From positions 1 through 58,740 of IMG/VR virus record IMGVR_UViG_3300046170_000273: a stretch of 58,740 nucleotides of DNA. One strand, written 5' to 3'. The notes beneath the pieces were generated by a model. The model saw only the letters and a program-made list of their open reading frames with translations, made no database searches and was not told the origin of the DNA. Of this stretch, positions 2,350 through 18,418 are shown in pieces. This DNA is from a virus. Made by a program: the position numbers and the translations under genes. How positions within the stretch are numbered: the first letter of the stretch is position 1; the number at the start of each line of letters is the position of its first letter.

Positions 2350-4866
2350 TTATTCTCCTCTGTTTCTGATTATAGCTATATTTCCAGGCATTTCATCCAT
2401 TTTCGGTGCCGAAGGTATAGTTTTACTCAAAATTGTTTTCTCAATAGACGTATTAGCTCTTAATTTAGCTAATTCTTCGTTTTGTTCAAGTTTATCTTCT
2501 TGATTTCCTTGGTTCATCATAGCTTTTGACTTATCTAAGTTTATTCTTTGATCAGCTTGATCGTGTTTTTGTTGATTGTCCATAGCTCTAAGGTCTAATT
2601 CTCTTGCTTTTAGTTTAGCAATTGGATCATTTCCAAAATCACCCATGATTTTACTCTCTTCATCCTTAAATTCTTGTGTCATATCAGCAATTAATTTAGC
2701 TTTTCTTGCTTCAATAGCCATACTTAACTGCATAATTTGTTGTTGAACTTGTGGATTCTGTCCTACGTCTGGATTTTGTTGAGCCATTTGTTGTAATTGC
2801 ATTAATTGTTGTATCTCATCTCTAAATTCTATTTCTAATTGCTCTTGTGCCATTAAAGAAATGTGTTCAAAAATGTTTTTTTGTAATGCACCCATAATTA
2901 CTGGATTATTTTTTACCATATTAGTTGCCATGAAATTTAAGTGCGAAGTAATGTGTGCTCTGTGATCTTGACCTTTGAATGCTTGGAAAGGTTTACCACT
3001 CATTGCCATAATATTTTCTGCCGCTGGATCCATTGGCATTGGTTGTTGAGGTGGTGGTAAAATTTTATCAATATTTTTTACACCAATTGCAGTGTACATA
3101 TCTCTGTATGCTTCATACATATTATGCATTCCAGGATTTGACATTGCAAGTTGTAGTTCAGTTTGAGCCAAACTAATTCTTTGTGATTGTGAAAATATAT
3201 TTGGATCAGCTATAGGCATGATGTCTACTTTCTCATCAAAGTCTGCAACTTTAATATTTCGTTGTCCACCAATAACATCATAAGGATATTCTGGTGGTAA
3301 ATACGTTTTGAAGACATCTGATAATAAAACAAATTCTTTTTTTAATGCCACATACAATCTTTTATGTATGGCTGACATGACCCTGGAGCCTCGCTCTAAG
3401 AGGGCAATGGTCGTTCCAACAGCTGCCTGCTGGTTGCCGTCACCGACCTGCATGTCAGCTATGGCGGCAAATCGTTGACCTGCGTTTACTACGATGCCCA
3501 TCAGTTGTAATAATGTTGCTGATGGTTCTTTGAAAGGTAAAGGCATAAATGCGTCTCTAATGTTTCCGCCAGGTGCATCTACGTCTCTAAACTCTCCAGG
3601 TTGAATCGATTGCGCTTCATCTCTAACACGAATACCTCTTTGCTTAAATCCAGCCGGCATATTTGAAAATGTACCAGCATCTAATAATTGTCTAAGTGCA
3701 TTCGTTGCAGTTCTTGATAATCCACCGATCATGTGGATTAAGCCAAAACCATAAAACCCTAAACCCGGTAAAAATTTAAAATGTGCAAAGTATTCAATTT
3801 TATTTCTTAGTGGGTCTTCAGCTTTATAATTTCTTCTTATAGATAAAACTTCTCTTGACGATGTATCAATTGTTACAATGTATGGAAGTTTTATTCCTGT
3901 TGGGTTTTGTTCCATGTCTTTATCTTCAAAACCTTCAAGATCAAGATTAGTGTGTATTTCTAGAATAGTGAACATTTGTTCATCTCTAGTTTTTTTAACT
4001 CCTTCTAATTCTCTTTCTTTTTTATCTACTTCTGTTTCTTGAGAATAACCAGGTGTGATTTCTATGTCTCTATAAAAACCAGCTACTTGTTTTTTTCTTA
4101 AGTCGTTTTCTGACATTTTTAAAACATGCACAATTGATTCTGCATCTTCTAAAGATGTGGCTGTGTAAGGTACTATCAAATCATCTGCCGGAACAAATTT
4201 AGACACGGCTCTGCCAAGCAGTTCATCGTAATAAACTTTCTTGAATGCAGAGCCGCTAAGAGGGAGATAAAAAAGTAACTGATCGAACTCGGGTTCATAC
4301 TCTTTCATCACGTTCATGAGTTGATAGTTCATGAAATTTTTTACTCTCGTAGCTTGGTCTTCTTTTTGTCTATTGATCACACCCATAATTTGAGTGTGTA
4401 CTGGACCATTTGCTGGAAGTAATTCTTTGTAAGCATGTGCTTGAAACTGTGTTACCGCTTCAGCTAATACTGGGTGTGTTGCACCACTTGCATTTGTAAA
4501 CGGTTGTGATCTGTTTTCGTATTTAAATCCTAATAAATCTAAACCTTTAGTGTAAGCATCTTCCCAATCTTTTCTCGATGCTTTGTACTGCATATAGTTT
4601 TCATAAAGTTCAGAACCTAAAGTACCTAAAACATCCTCTGGTAATAGGTCTGCTAAATTATCAAAATGTTCGTTTGTACCTGGTTGGTTTATGGCTTCTG
4701 GATCAAAAGTAATAGTAGCTCCACCATCTTCGTCTTGTTCAACTTGAACATCTTCGGGTCCAACCTGTTCTTCGATATTCTCTTGAGATGCTTCTGCGAT
4801 CTCTTCTTCGCTAGGTAATTTTATTTCCTGCTCTACGTTGGGTAAAGCTTTGTCTATATCTGCCAT
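2350..4866 (-). CDS. Portal protein (P22-like, large)
   Basis: 838 aa. The dodecameric portal occupies one capsid vertex, through which DNA is packaged and ejected. Support: size and position between terminase-side genes and head genes, an N-terminal acidic disordered stretch (1-70), a central alpha/beta body with FTNASGATHPVLAEAVTQFQ (about 122-141) and conserved SQPF, NMPAGFKQRG and GDGNQQAAVGTT segments of the P22-type portals of marine podoviruses, and a long Gln/Met-rich helical C-terminus (about 680-838) suggestive of a barrel. The start at 4866 overlaps a small ORF. Assignment is by family resemblance. Confidence 0.8.
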   Translation of the reverse strand: MADIDKALPNVEQEIKLPSEEEIAEASQENIEEQVGPEDVQVEQDEDGGATITFDPEAINQPGTNEHFDNLADLLPEDVLGTLGSELYENYMQYKASRKDWEDAYTKGLDLLGFKYENRSQPFTNASGATHPVLAEAVTQFQAHAYKELLPANGPVHTQIMGVINRQKEDQATRVKNFMNYQLMNVMKEYEPEFDQLLFYLPLSGSAFKKVYYDELLGRAVSKFVPADDLIVPYTATSLEDAESIVHVLKMSENDLRKKQVAGFYRDIEITPGYSQETEVDKKERELEGVKKTRDEQMFTILEIHTNLDLEGFEDKDMEQNPTGIKLPYIVTIDTSSREVLSIRRNYKAEDPLRNKIEYFAHFKFLPGLGFYGFGLIHMIGGLSRTATNALRQLLDAGTFSNMPAGFKQRGIRVRDEAQSIQPGEFRDVDAPGGNIRDAFMPLPFKEPSATLLQLMGIVVNAGQRFAAIADMQVGDGNQQAAVGTTIALLERGSRVMSAIHKRLYVALKKEFVLLSDVFKTYLPPEYPYDVIGGQRNIKVADFDEKVDIMPIADPNIFSQSQRISLAQTELQLAMSNPGMHNMYEAYRDMYTAIGVKNIDKILPPPQQPMPMDPAAENIMAMSGKPFQAFKGQDHRAHITSHLNFMATNMVKNNPVIMGALQKNIFEHISLMAQEQLEIEFRDEIQQLMQLQQMAQQNPDVGQNPQVQQQIMQLSMAIEARKAKLIADMTQEFKDEESKIMGDFGNDPIAKLKARELDLRAMDNQQKHDQADQRINLDKSKAMMNQGNQEDKLEQNEELAKLRANTSIEKTILSKTIPSAPKMDEMPGNIAIIRNRGE

Positions 4867-9960: not shown

Positions 9961-9974
9961 GGGTGGGCCCTCCC
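9961..9974 (+). repeat. GC box GGGTGGGCCCTCCC, copy 1
   Basis: A 14-bp GC-rich element with a GGGCCC palindromic centre in AT-rich noncoding DNA upstream of terL. It is followed 10 bases later by a single CAAGC. The same box recurs at 12367, 13116 and 13598 and as variants at 13080 and 25967. Confidence 0.75.
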
Positions 9975-10732: not shown

Positions 10733-11734
10733 TTAATTCAAGTTATCCGAATTAATTTTCTGCTGTTGCATATATGCAACACGTTCTGCTATCTTTTGTT
10801 TTCTAGTTTTTTCAGTATTTTTCATACCTTTTATTCTTTCAGCTAGATTTTTCGGATTGTAAATAACAAGCCCTGTACTATTAGTTCTTATTATTTCGTG
10901 GTCAGTAATTTGAACATCAAGTTCATTTGCTAACTCAATCGCTTCATCTAACCATTTGTAGCCCTTTAATCCAATCTTGATTTCTTTCATTTGTTTCAAG
11001 ACTGAACTAATCCATTTTTCGTGAGCAACAATAAATTGACCTTTACTCGCTTTCCAAGAAACAAGAAAATTAAATTCTTGTTCGGTGCAAGCAATAGACC
11101 TATCACGACAATAATCACGACCAATTAAATCAAGATTATATTTTTCGTTCCACTCTTTACCATACTTGGTTTCATTGTTTCTTCCACCACTCAATCCAAG
11201 ATACTCATTGTTATTATCAACAAATTTTCTTTTGTGTGGATTGTCGTCTTTGTCAGCTTGTTCAATTAAGATATCAGCATTACAATTTTCTTGTGCGTTT
11301 ATCTCATCTCTAAACAAGGCAAAGCCATAACTACTATCACGACTAGAAGAATAATTGTTTTCAGTATCAATAGAACCATTTAATCTAAAATCAAAATGTT
11401 TCTCTATTGGTTTCTCAACCATTGATACATTTCCATTATAGTCTTTTTCTTCTGCTAGACCTTGATAGTGAAAATGAAAACAACTATCTTTTGCAATAGT
11501 TGAAACATTTTCAAACTTGTTTTGTAAGTAGTAAGCTTTTTCTACATCTTCATCTGTATAGTGTCGTCTTACTATGTCTTTTGCAACAGACCAAGCTTTG
11601 TCATTTATATCAACTTGTTCCCCTTTGAGAGTGTCATACTTTTTCTTCTCTTGGGTATCTTCTTGAAATAAAGACTGCTTGATACGATTTGCAACTTTGT
11701 TTCGGTACTCTTGGTTTAGTCTTATACGTGCCAT
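10733..11734 (-). CDS. Conserved hypothetical protein, 333 aa
   Basis: Soluble, charged, no membrane segment. It has an N-terminal basic helix (residues 1-30), a central Asn/Asp-rich segment (residues 110-190) and a helical C-terminus (240-333) with a lysine-rich end. No catalytic motif was recognised. It is the first gene leftward of the divergent regulatory region 11735-11920 and so is probably early-expressed. Confidence 0.6.
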   Translation of the reverse strand: MARIRLNQEYRNKVANRIKQSLFQEDTQEKKKYDTLKGEQVDINDKAWSVAKDIVRRHYTDEDVEKAYYLQNKFENVSTIAKDSCFHFHYQGLAEEKDYNGNVSMVEKPIEKHFDFRLNGSIDTENNYSSSRDSSYGFALFRDEINAQENCNADILIEQADKDDNPHKRKFVDNNNEYLGLSGGRNNETKYGKEWNEKYNLDLIGRDYCRDRSIACTEQEFNFLVSWKASKGQFIVAHEKWISSVLKQMKEIKIGLKGYKWLDEAIELANELDVQITDHEIIRTNSTGLVIYNPKNLAERIKGMKNTEKTRKQKIAERVAYMQQQKINSDNLN

Positions 11735-12314: not shown

Positions 12315-12361
12315 TTTCCTAGTTTAGAACTATTCTAAACTAGGAAAAATTTTTTTTGTTT
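12315..12361 (+). terminator. Strong intrinsic terminator
   Basis: TTTCCTAGTTTAGAA (12315-12329) and its exact inverse complement (12333-12347) close a 3-base loop, followed by a T-rich run. Placed 20 bases after the stop at 12295, it ends the first plus-strand transcript. Confidence 0.9.
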
Positions 12362-12366
12362 TTTTT

Positions 12367-12390
12367 GGGTGGGCCCTCCCGGGTGGGCCC
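12367..12390 (+). repeat. GC box copy 2, one and a half units
   Basis: GGGTGGGCCCTCCC at 12367-12380, immediately repeated as GGGTGGGCCC at 12381-12390. It directly follows the T-run of the terminator and is followed by CTCAAGCTTTAAGC. The order T-run, GC box, CAAGC motif recurs at 13080 and (without the T-run) at 13598. Confidence 0.8.
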
Positions 12391-12489: not shown

Positions 12490-12885
12490 ATGGGACTAGA
12501 TCAATACGCAGGACTTCGAGATAGTAAGGGTGAAGTTCACGAAAAGTTTTATTGGAGAAAGCACGCACGCCTACAAGTGTTCTTTGCTAAACAATTCAAT
12601 AAACAGAAAAAAGATAAAGATCACAATACACATAGTGACCTACAACATTTAGGTTTTAATTGTGGTCAAGGTGGTGTTACAATTACTGAAGATGTAATCA
12701 AGGATCTGGAAGAGGCAATTAAAAATGGTTATTATAGTCATTTTGCTTCTGATGGTTTCTTCTGGGGTCAGCAATTCCAAGAAGAGCAGATTAAAGAATA
12801 CAAAGCCCAAGATGAAGAGTTTTTAAAATGGGCTAAAGAACAAATCAAAGAGGGTCGGCAAATCGGCTACGATTGTTCTTGGTAA
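12490..12885 (+). CDS. Conserved MGLDQYA-type phage/bacterial protein
   Basis: 131 aa starting MGLDQYAGLRD followed by FYWRKHARLQVFF. This opening defines a widespread family of unknown function (MGLDMY.. proteins, with the WRKxxxLxxW element). A GGAG-type ribosome-binding site precedes the ATG. The middle has HLGFNCGQGGVTIT and a helical acidic C-terminus. Likely soluble cytoplasmic. It stands alone between a terminator and the structured RNA region. Confidence 0.7.
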   Translation: MGLDQYAGLRDSKGEVHEKFYWRKHARLQVFFAKQFNKQKKDKDHNTHSDLQHLGFNCGQGGVTITEDVIKDLEEAIKNGYYSHFASDGFFWGQQFQEEQIKEYKAQDEEFLKWAKEQIKEGRQIGYDCSW

Positions 12886-12889
12886 AAAG

Positions 12890-12932
12890 TTTTGGGGGTG
12901 GCAAAGTCGGGCAAGTCCCACGCCCCCCAAAA
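12890..12932 (+). terminator. GC-rich hairpin after 12885
   Basis: TTTTGGGGG (12890-12898) pairs with CCCCCAAAA (12924-12932); an inner GTGG/CCAC extends the stem with a bulge. It begins 5 bases after the stop codon and lacks a U-tract, so it may be a 3'-end stabiliser, a factor-assisted terminator or the first domain of the following RNA. Confidence 0.6.
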
Positions 12933-12934
12933 GC

Positions 12935-13079
12935 ATTTGGGCTAGTATAGGGCGCCTGGACGTTTCTGGGCTATATTCTAGGTCGCGGTGTCACTTTGGA
13001 GAACGTCCTCTCATTGTTCGAATTGGAAGAGGATCGCCTATTAGCCACTAGCCCAAATTAAATTTTTTTATTTTTTTTT
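12935..13079 (+). ncRNA. Candidate structured RNA with terminal stem and U-tract
   Basis: ATTTGGGCTAGT (12935-12946) and ACTAGCCCAAAT (13047-13058) form a perfect 12-bp closing stem. Inside, ATAGGGCG pairs with CGCCTAT with one bulge, GGACGTT (12958-12964) pairs with AACGTCC (13002-13008), and TCCTCT (13006-13011) with AGAGGA (13028-13033), sharing a few bases. The GC-rich interior ends in a long T-tract (to 13079). No ORF of note is present. The architecture resembles an autonomous multi-stem RNA rather than a simple terminator. The family is not recognised, and no promoter immediately upstream is obvious; readthrough from 12490 is possible. Confidence 0.55.
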
Positions 13080-13129
13080 GGGTGGGCCCGCCCATAGTTC
13101 ACAAGCTACAAGCTAGGGTGGGCCCTCCC
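13080..13129 (+). repeat. GC boxes copies 3 and 4 with CAAGC motifs
   Basis: GGGTGGGCCCGCCC (13080-13093, one base variant) and GGGTGGGCCCTCCC (13116-13129) flank CACAAGCTACAAGCTAG. Paired boxes could fold together, since GGGCCC is self-complementary. The stretch lies between the candidate RNA and the promoter at 13152. Confidence 0.75.
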
Positions 13130-13151
13130 TGAATAATTTAAAATTTTTTAG

Positions 13152-13180
13152 TTGACAAGCTAGCTGGGATATTGTAGGAT
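13152..13180 (+). promoter_or_regulatory. Sigma70-like promoter for 13303
   Basis: TTGACA (13152-13157), 17-base spacer, TAGGAT (13175-13180). The -35 box runs into an AAGC motif. It would give a leader of about 115 nt before the ATG at 13303. Confidence 0.55.
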
Positions 13181-13186
13181 GTATTT

Positions 13187-13302
13187 ATCCCGTTTGATGG
13201 TATCCGGATTTAAAACTCAAACCATCACAACGCCGACCCCCTGAGGGAATAGCTTGAAAGATTAGCTCAATGCTCGGGGACTAGGCACAACAGAAAGGAT
13301 AT
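13187..13302 (+). promoter_or_regulatory. Structured 5' leader of 13303
   Basis: TGATGGT (13195-13201) pairs with ACCATCA (13221-13227). CCCC..GAG (13238-13245) pairs with CTCGGGG (13273-13279), enclosing further AGCT pairing. A GAAAGGA ribosome-binding site lies just before the ATG. The stems are clear, but the leader matches no riboswitch I recognise. Confidence 0.45.
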
Positions 13303-13542
13303 ATGACAACACAAACTGAAGAGAAAAAATACGAACGTAAGAACAGGTTCAACGGTGAGTCCGCAATGCTTACAGCTGATGAAGCTAAGAGACATGACCG
13401 GATCTTTACGAATGAGCTTGCAGCTACGCTGGAGGATAAGAAGCTAGGCTACGGCAGCTCTAAGCTATGGGACCAGGTCCGTAAGGATCTTAACTGGTTC
13501 AGGCAGCACAACGCCAGCGCTTACATGGCGTTACTTGATTAG
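13303..13542 (+). CDS. Hypothetical protein, 79 aa
   Basis: A hydrophilic helical protein (MTTQTEEKKYERKNRF..., with TADEAKRHDRIF and KLWDQVRKDLNWFRQHN). Codon use is richer in G and C than in the replication genes (CTT, GCT, GGC, CAG frequent), as in the neighbouring Gene 88-type gene. No family recognised. It has its own promoter and long leader and is followed by a GC-rich hairpin. Confidence 0.6.
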   Translation: MTTQTEEKKYERKNRFNGESAMLTADEAKRHDRIFTNELAATLEDKKLGYGSSKLWDQVRKDLNWFRQHNASAYMALLD

Positions 13543-13550
13543 TCCGGATC

Positions 13551-13588
13551 AGGGCGCTTCGGGCCAGTACGGCCTTACCAGGCGCCCT
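13551..13588 (+). terminator. Two-level GC hairpin after 13542
   Basis: AGGGCGC (13551-13557) pairs with GCGCCCT (13582-13588), enclosing GGCC (13562-13565)/GGCC (13571-13574) around AGTAC. It starts 8 bases after the stop. There is no T-run, so it may protect the 3' end or act with a factor. Confidence 0.55.
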
Positions 13589-13597
13589 TATCCACTG

Positions 13598-13611
13598 GGG
13601 TGGGCCCTCCC
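13598..13611 (+). repeat. GC box GGGTGGGCCCTCCC, copy 5
   Basis: An exact copy, followed by GTAAGGGG and then a CAAGC repeat cluster (13619-13666, five copies at 8-10 bp spacing) that runs into the promoter at 13649. The same modular order occurs at 12367 and 13080. Confidence 0.8.
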
Positions 13612-13648
13612 GTAAGGGGTCAAGCTACAAGCCCTCAAGCGCTCAAGC

Positions 13649-13677
13649 TTGACAGGCTACAAGCTCTATGTTATAAG
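13649..13677 (+). promoter_or_regulatory. Sigma70-like promoter for 13696
   Basis: TTGACA (13649-13654), a 17-base spacer and TATAAG (13672-13677), followed by AGGAG (13685-13689) and the ATG at 13696. The -35 box is built out of a CAAGCTTGACA repeat unit, so the repeat cluster overlaps the promoter and could bind a regulator. Confidence 0.65.
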
Positions 13678-13695
13678 ATATTATAGGAGAATATT

Positions 13696-14298
13696 ATGTT
13701 AAAAAAAGAAGCAAGAAAAATAACAGGCGGCCTGAGTAAGCCGTCGAAGATGCCAGGACCAGCGCACAACCTGCCGGCCGTGGCATGTAAGACTGGCGCT
13801 AAGCTGGTGAAGGTCCCGGGCTCAGTATGCGCGGGCTGTTACGCCCTGAAGGGGCGCTATAGATTTAACAATGTACAGCAGGCATTGCAACGACGCCTGG
13901 CAGCGCTCGAGGATCCGCGCTGGGTGGATGCGATGGTAACATTGATTAAGGACCAGGACTGGTTCAGGTGGCATGACTCAGGAGACATCCAGAGCATGAA
14001 GCATCTAGAAAATATATTTTTAGTGTGCAAGCGTACAAGCAAGACCAGACACTGGATGCCAACGCGCGAAGCGCAATTCCTGAAAAATTTAGATCCGGCC
14101 ACAGTTCCGCCAAATTTAATAATTAGAATGAGTTCACACATGATAGACCAGGGACCAGTTAAGCAATGGCCCTGGACGTCGACAGTCACCAGCGGAAGCG
14201 GCAGGACGTGCCCGGCCCCTGAACAGGAGAACAGCTGCGGGAGCTGCAGACAATGCTGGGACAGGTCCACACCAAACGTGTGTTACGGTAAACATTAA
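13696..14298 (+). CDS. Gene 88 (GP88)-type phage protein
   Basis: 200 aa. It matches the pattern of the phage Gene 88 family (recalled as Pfam GP88): N-terminal LSKPSKMPGPAHNLPA, then VCAGCYALKGRYRF (about 47-60), FRWHDSGDIQSM (about 95-106), HWMPTREAQF, PPNLIIRMSSHM and a C-terminal multi-cysteine part with CPAPEQ, SCGSCRQCW and NVCYGKH. Conserved cysteines and histidines suggest metal binding, possibly an iron-sulfur or zinc site. The biochemical function is unknown. High GC and C/G-ending codons set it apart from the rest of the genome, suggesting recent acquisition. Confidence 0.8.
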   Translation: MLKKEARKITGGLSKPSKMPGPAHNLPAVACKTGAKLVKVPGSVCAGCYALKGRYRFNNVQQALQRRLAALEDPRWVDAMVTLIKDQDWFRWHDSGDIQSMKHLENIFLVCKRTSKTRHWMPTREAQFLKNLDPATVPPNLIIRMSSHMIDQGPVKQWPWTSTVTSGSGRTCPAPEQENSCGSCRQCWDRSTPNVCYGKH

Positions 14299-14299
14299 T

Positions 14300-14500
14300 A
14301 TGGAATTCAAACACCCGAAGTATTACGCTGCGCTCAGGAAGCAGGGCCGCAAGCCTACAAGCTCTCAAGCTCCAAGCGACAAGCGTCCCAACCCACGCTC
14401 AAGGGTTCAAGCTTCAAGCCAGAGTTCACAAGCTTCAGGATCTGATGACCAGGGTACAAGCGCACAAGCCCACGGTCCGGGGTACAAGCAACAAGGATAA
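14300..14500 (+). CDS. Small ORF with repeat-encoded tail, 66 aa
   Basis: Starts two bases after the Gene 88-type stop, with MEFKHPKYYAALRKQGRKP, a sensible folded N-terminus that I recall in similar positions. After residue 19 the product is low-complexity Ser/Gln/Ala because the DNA is a CAAGC repeat array. Whether the tail is functional or a repeat expansion that ran into the gene is open. Confidence 0.5.
   Translation: MEFKHPKYYAALRKQGRKPTSSQAPSDKRPNPRSRVQASSQSSQASGSDDQGTSAQAHGPGYKQQG
14350..14496 (+). repeat. CAAGC repeat array, 10 units
   Basis: Ten copies of CAAGC in about 150 bp, several spaced 8-10 bp (TACAAGCTCTCAAGCTCCAAG and onward). The same unit clusters at 12398, 13101, and 13619-13666. 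No spacers of constant length, so not CRISPR. One array is translated as the tail of the 14300-14500 ORF. Confidence 0.75.
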
Positions 14501-17705: not shown

Positions 17706-17856
17706 CTTCTTCTACCTCCTCTTCTATTTCACCTTGGTTGTTGCAAAAATCACAATCAGCCCATTGTTCTTCTCTGACCTGTTCGTATGGGACTCGGACA
17801 AAACCGTTTCCATTACAAACAGAGCAGATTACTTTACGCGTTTTTGAGTTTGCCAT
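17677..17856 (-). CDS. Small DnaJ-type zinc-finger protein, 59 aa
   Basis: Two CxxC knuckles, VICSVCNGNGFV and CDFCNNQGE, in the CxxCxGxG style of the DnaJ central zinc domain, then an acidic tail (EIEEEVEED). A free-standing knuckle protein; a SAR116 phage polymerase is described with a fused DnaJ-like domain, so a replication-linked role is conceivable but unproven. It overlaps the ribbon-helix-helix ORF upstream. Confidence 0.6.
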   Translation of the reverse strand: MANSKTRKVICSVCNGNGFVRVPYEQVREEQWADCDFCNNQGEIEEEVEEDVDRQRKSN

Positions 17857-18007
17857 TTAACTTCTTCTCTTTCTCATTTACTAATAATGTTATGGTTTGA
17901 GATCTACTTATTGTCATCTCAGGAATCATAACTTTCCTTATCTTATCTATTTTATTATATGTATCTTTTGGAAGTGATACATTTTTATATTTGCTTATAT
18001 CAGTCAT
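17834..18007 (-). CDS. Ribbon-helix-helix (CopG-like) regulator, 57 aa
   Basis: KNVSLPKDTYNKIDKI (beta strand plus helix) followed by TISRSQTITLLVNEKEKK: the arrangement of a ribbon-helix-helix DNA-binding protein that dimerises to bind operator repeats. Only candidate repressor of this type in the window. It could act on the palindrome at 11789 or the 9-mers at 15859; both are guesses. Starts ATG at 18007. Confidence 0.6.
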   Translation of the reverse strand: MTDISKYKNVSLPKDTYNKIDKIRKVMIPEMTISRSQTITLLVNEKEKKLNGKLKNA

Positions 18008-18076
18008 AAACTTTATACTCCTTTCTTAGATTTAAACTAATATAGGATTTATCTCACAATATACAATAGGTGTCAA

Positions 18077-18295: not shown

Positions 18296-18418
18296 TACGG
18301 AGTACAGATCTGTGTGCACTGTACTGTACCCCGTCCGGCTTTGGTCGCTACCCTTTCAGGTCATAGCTAACGTAAGTGACTTAGCGCGAAGCATTTGTAT
18401 TGACGCCTACTCACCGGT

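Follow-up and report, generated by a model that had tools for sequence, protein, structure and literature searches.

Phage-encoded structured RNA is an already known kind of thing. The GOLLD and ROOL RNAs are often associated with phages, and the pRNA of phi29-type phages is an RNA of about 120 nt with closed ends and a three-way junction. The element analyzed here shares with the latter its length of about 120 nt, the end-closing stem, the three-way junction and the neighborhood of phage packaging genes, but inspection by eye showed no sequence likeness, a gene for a terminase small subunit is present in the phage, and about half of the related phages have no such element. GOLLD and ROOL, described as ornate RNAs (PMC12286853), are likewise structured noncoding RNAs of unexplained purpose; however, they are several hundred nucleotides long and form multimers, whereas the members of the present family measure about 105–135 nt and match neither model. 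A third comparison is offered by Flavobacterium-1 (RF02976), which is also structured, about 121 nt long, classed by Rfam as an sRNA gene and found at the same locus in the cultured pelagiphage HTVC027P; its sequence and structure are different and its model gives no match at the element. Finally, an intrinsic terminator also consists of a stem followed by a U-tract, but it is a short-loop GC stem, and this identity was rejected on account of the 100-nt structured interior and of a U-tract that is not conserved in relatives.

No family of Rfam 15 matched the element at gathering thresholds; the only matches were weak and lay far below these thresholds, and Rfam E-value searches with single members returned nothing. 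ARAGORN reported 0 tRNA or tmRNA genes in the window, i.e., the whole 58,740-nt stretch analyzed. These results agree with the first-pass annotation, which had recognized no tRNA, tmRNA or other known RNA family here. Titles and abstracts of the literature on noncoding or small RNA and pelagiphages yielded no paper on such an RNA; as far as term searches reach into their main texts, PMC12753301, PMC11066056 and PMC9599517 do not mention it, and the first of these contains no intergenic or small RNA under the same terms. By these searches, the family is new, with no Rfam 15 match and no description in the literature searched.

The element is 124 bases long and comes from a relative of the phages that infect SAR11, the commonest bacteria of the ocean. 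Its parts are the following, R1 and R2 being two covariance models described below:

12935–13058, + strand: whole structured RNA element of the apparently new family (R1, 28.1 bits; R2, 47.8 bits, E = 1.1e-10)
12935–12946, + strand: 5' arm of the closing stem P1, exchangeable among relatives (seen in the letters and in P1 covariation)
12951–12953, + strand: 5' arm of P1b, GGC, partner of 13044–13046
12954–12971, + strand: hairpin P2, GCCUGGA-CGUU-UCUGGGC, with a closing G-C pair invariant in the family
12972–12975, + strand: junction UAUA, near-invariant
12976–12985, + strand: 5' arm of P3, UUCU-AGG-(U)-CG, with a bulged U
12987–13007, + strand: hairpin P4, GGUGU...ACGUC, tentative in the window subgroup (manual comparison with relatives)
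13008–13031, + strand: arm P5, CUCU...AGAG, with a 3' GGAAG-like bulge, tentative
13035–13043, + strand: 3' arm of P3, CGCCU-AUUA
13044–13046, + strand: 3' arm of P1b, GCC
13047–13058, + strand: 3' arm of the closing stem P1
13060–13079, + strand: U-tract, in a subset of relatives only

The perfect 12-bp closing stem (12935–12946 paired with 13047–13058) and the T-run announced by the first-pass annotation were both found in the letters, and the GC-rich interior in an AT-rich genome was borne out by a G+C content of 0.49 in the element vs. 0.37 in the window. The minimum free energy of 12935–13079 was –41.7 kcal/mol (z = –2.31), and 4 of 200 shuffled sequences folded equally well. At least one perfect stem of at least 12 bp spanning 80–140 nt was obtained in 12 of 60 dinucleotide-shuffled windows (about 20%). 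The 12-bp stem by itself is weak evidence and the window alone gives modest evidence; since stem and fold are modest when taken alone, the case had to rest on relatives. The interior of the minimum-energy fold is not the conserved one: P1, P1b and P2 of the minimum-energy structure are retained in the comparative structure, while the remainder is replaced by P3, P4 and P5, and the single-sequence interior was rejected as the true fold. Internal stems exist, as claimed, although not all of those predicted thermodynamically are conserved.

Related phage loci were fetched through two neighboring proteins, the RNA itself being unused in the selection. In many of them, a closed multi-stem element was present at the same place, 3' of the gene for a 131-aa protein, with stems that had changed yet remained complementary. 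The sequences nearest to the window were L033/L118 and L025 (84%), L058, L054 and L055. Window-like and other sequences have in common the core C-UAUA-NNNY-AGG-U-CG ... CG-CCU-R-N-G, which reads CUAUAUUCUAGGUCG ... CGCCUAUUA in the window, with C-UAUA after P2 and AGG-U-CG / CG-CCU in P3 both present. Model R1, built from 9 members with the window group left out, matched a second large group (L138–L152), the L058 group and the L025/L033 group; the window was not reported under default filters and scored 28.1 bits with filters off over a 401-base stretch. Model R2 drew on 36 members, among them the 84% relatives of the window but not the window itself, and hit the window at 47.8 bits (E = 1.1e-10), its sole match in the genome. 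The window element was matched at full length by both models. A scan of the viral collection with the core pattern returned 115 stretches; among the matches listed, 60 of the 63 new stretches tested were matched by R2, as were 26 of 28 further fetched stretches. In all, the shape and the core are kept in about 100 related pieces of phage DNA whose sequence changes, and the element is usually present in a single copy per genome. When one genome per bacterial or archaeal species was scanned (84,980 species), 8 pattern stretches were found, none matching the model. When the element plus flanking DNA was searched against phage records, only the leader 3' of the element matched. The exact letters of the outer stem, also tried as a probe, recognized one true relative (L118), the other stretches being partly checked; these letters are a poor probe because the outer stem is exchangeable. 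A possible divergent relative, with UAAA for UAUA, occupies the same place in L028 (about 3445–3565) and was not reported by R2.

Covariation among homologues, which the first-pass annotation had named as a test of its proposal, came out strongly in favor of the structure. In the 36-member alignment, two-sided changes occurred in 33 of 36 pairs and 94.2% of cells pair; with 86 distinct sequences, the corresponding values were 29 of 31 pairs and 93.7%, with a covariation score of 0.72. These pairing figures are inflated by the fitting of the alignments to the structure, and the effect size is shown by a control that keeps relatedness, in which partners were slid by 1–3 columns, giving 33–44% of pairing cells and covariation scores of 0.04–0.12. 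The outer P3 pair illustrates the pattern, being G-C, A-U, U-A or C-G, with no unpaired sequence among the 86. Among representatives below 90% identity, G-U pairs outnumbered A-C mismatches 150 to 24, a comparison in which fitting to the model may somewhat favor G-U. Since the reversed ratio would be expected if the other strand were functional, this excess indicates that the + strand is the functional one. Besides, the overlapping open frames vary in strand and frame among loci and hence give no sign of a conserved protein. It is the homologues that decide: from these comparative sequence data, the element is judged to be real and a folded RNA, and the + strand of 12935–13058 is shown to belong to a structured-RNA family absent from Rfam 15, whose members were found in relatives of the pelagiphage HTVC027P. 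The earlier description, a marine-phage noncoding RNA with several stems, is supported, and a cultured relative, HTVC027P, carries one.

What is conserved is a core three-way junction formed by P1/P1b, the hairpin P2, the nearly invariant C-UAUA, and P3 with its bulged U and a mismatched (non-pairing) position; two variable arms, P4 and P5, are carried on P3. P1, P4 and P5 are exchangeable among relatives, the outer stem P1 taking many sequences, and P1b consists of 2–4 pairs connecting to P2. The closing G-C pair of P2 never varies, and one of 78 representatives has a single-base departure from UAUA. Such conservation of an unpaired segment argues for a putative binding site or tertiary core. 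The P5 arm of one subgroup terminates in a small pseudoknot (CCC/GGG, CCG/CGG or CCA/UGG), with C-G, G-C or A-U as its third pair. P1, P1b, P2 and P3 are clear in the window, where two outer P3 positions are mismatched, and P4 and P5 are tentative because the relatives are few and were compared by eye. The T-run is absent from most homologues and is no family feature, although the first-pass annotation named it among the features of the candidate RNA; it is part of a repeated unit with a second copy at 12347, and in the subset having one the U-tract is possibly the 3' end of the RNA.

The element is placed among the following features of the window:

10733–11734, – strand: gp35-like gene (333 aa), divergent anchor
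12490–12885, + strand: gene for a 131-aa protein, directly 5' of the element in the nearest relatives of the window
12890–12931, + strand: separate GC-rich hairpin cassette, GGGGGTGGC...GCCCCCC, between the stop of the preceding gene and the element
13696–14298, + strand: GP88 (PF17338) gene, downstream anchor

At least one of the three anchor genes (gp35-like, 131-aa gene, GP88) was found in all 110 compared loci, some of which are near-duplicates. The gp35-like gene precedes the element on the opposite strand in 99 of the 110, and GP88 lies downstream on the same strand in 79, the remaining loci possibly ending too early. Position and orientation are the same across these loci, upstream of GP88 and terS, with a distance to GP88 of 51 to 1645 nt in which other genes can intervene. 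Relatives of both the gp35-like gene and GP88 occur in two cultured pelagiphages, HTVC027P and HTVC033P. In HTVC027P, the RNA was found at 17942–18054 of the record (31.2 bits), where gp34 and gp35 are separated by about 550 bases; HTVC033P and 023Pt_psg01 gave no model match. The element was present in 22 of 46 protein-fetched loci with both anchors (19 of 42 without obvious duplicates), i.e., in about half, and it is therefore optional. Of 74 loci, 25 carry a sigma-70-type promoter match (11 of 12 positions) on the same strand no more than 350 nt upstream; shuffled sequences predict 0.5, and 4 were found on the opposite strand. The window is outside this set of 25 and has no strong promoter directly upstream; the promoter-like site that the element had been said to precede was located 3' of it, at 13152.

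With moderate confidence, we propose that the element is a stand-alone structured RNA, optional and acting in trans, at a locus of variable RNA cassettes. It would be transcribed during infection, either as a separate small RNA or as a piece released from a cassette transcript, and would act in trans as a folded RNA, independently of the neighboring genes; the junction core may bind a protein or another RNA, P1, P4 and P5 being presumably replaceable scaffolds. Because the locus keeps different stem-closed RNA cassettes, the element would probably be an optional regulator or decoy and not an essential phage part. The excess of promoter matches, the usual single copy, the optional presence and the known sRNA family next to it in HTVC027P were counted in favor of action in trans. 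Against it were counted the fixed genome place, which would also fit a long cis-acting 5' leader of the GP88–terS genes, and the fact that the window element follows gene 12490–12885 and a hairpin without a strong promoter directly upstream. Since the locus never changes sides relative to these genes, the main rival is a leader or attenuator, 5' or intercistronic, controlling GP88 and terS through ligand binding, processing or termination. Its fixed order and orientation, its unpaired, aptamer-like conserved core and the succession of P1 and U-tract in the window subgroup would suit this role. However, the variable distance to GP88, with other genes possible in between, speaks against a cis partner at fixed distance, a promoter-like site separates the window element from the genes that follow, the U-tract is missing in most relatives and about half of the phages do without the element, so that cis control is considered rather unlikely. 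In an RNA-seq study of HTVC027P infection, the two downstream genes, gp33 and gp34, fall in an unusual early-to-middle cluster (PMC12753301).

Two further explanations are each given a low probability. The small conserved junction core with exchangeable outer stems is an arrangement of known small ribozymes, and the neighbors are other stem-closed cassettes, so that a self-cleaving RNA cutting the cassette transcript into separate small RNAs could be imagined; it is nevertheless improbable, as no Rfam ribozyme matches, the covariation keeps both arms of P1, and nothing points to a cleavage site. Function at the DNA level, as a site of packaging or replication or as a palindromic repeat that is mobile, would account for GC-rich inverted repeats in an AT-rich genome close to terS. 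Yet the usual single copy at always one locus is not that of a dispersed repeat, the 6 to 1 ratio of G-U over A-C means that one strand acts single-stranded, and absence from about half of the phages fits an essential packaging site poorly; such a function would be surprising. As for a chance inverted repeat without function, the one-fifth of shuffled windows with a comparable 12-bp stem would allow it, but it is refuted by the covariation over 86 distinct sequences and by model matches with E of 1e-10 or lower, and can practically be dismissed.

Other stem-closed elements share the locus, each type with a core that recurs and outer stems that vary. Such cassettes, whose outer stems are exchangeable, were seen in L015, L017, L034, L038, L042, L043, L044, L055 and others, the cores including CUAUUAAAACAAAGCACGCCGGCC, GGUAAACAAUUGYC and GCCGCCGCUAGANCACAGA...UCUGGCG. 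L039 has an inner core like that of the window hairpin 12890–12931 and a different outer stem. A full Flavobacterium-1 RNA (90.2 bits) lies beside the element of HTVC027P, at 17753–17873 of the record (L265:4754–4874, – strand), and a sub-threshold copy (38.3 bits, E = 2.6e-7 for one genome) lies at 18297–18417 (–) of the window. HTVC027P-type phages may devote an island to rapidly exchanged, stem-closed RNA cassettes, in which unrelated cores (the UAUA family, Flavobacterium-1 and at least three uncharacterized types) would be swapped at one locus via shared outer-stem sequences, a tentative idea built on few observed types. If true, it would be the RNA counterpart of a variable accessory-gene island.

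HTVC027P is described among the globally most abundant phages, and infected cells can lose ribosomal RNA signal (both PMC11066056); its early genes all have unknown functions (PMC12753301). A covariation-supported RNA in this cultured phage is a concrete, testable noncoding candidate in infection, and published infection RNA-seq (PRJNA1253180) can be re-read at once for the element RNA.

The repeated GC boxes reported around the element were confirmed as six copies of GGGTGGGCCC, all on the + strand, at 9961, 12367, 12381, 13080, 13116 and 13598; the unit of T-run and box, always +, covers 12347–12380 and 13060–13093. At 13180–13230, the window contains the leader CCCGUUUGRUGGUAUCCGGAUUNAAAACUCAAACCAYC, whose arms change together (GAUGG/CCAUC in the window and L173, GCUGG/CCAGC in L185, GGUAG/CUACC in L196 and GGUGG/CCACC in L266) and whose GUUUG/CAAAC could pair as a pseudoknot with the covarying arms. 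Dense CAAGC(T)-type repeats extend over 13102–14490, including within an ORF at 14300–14500.
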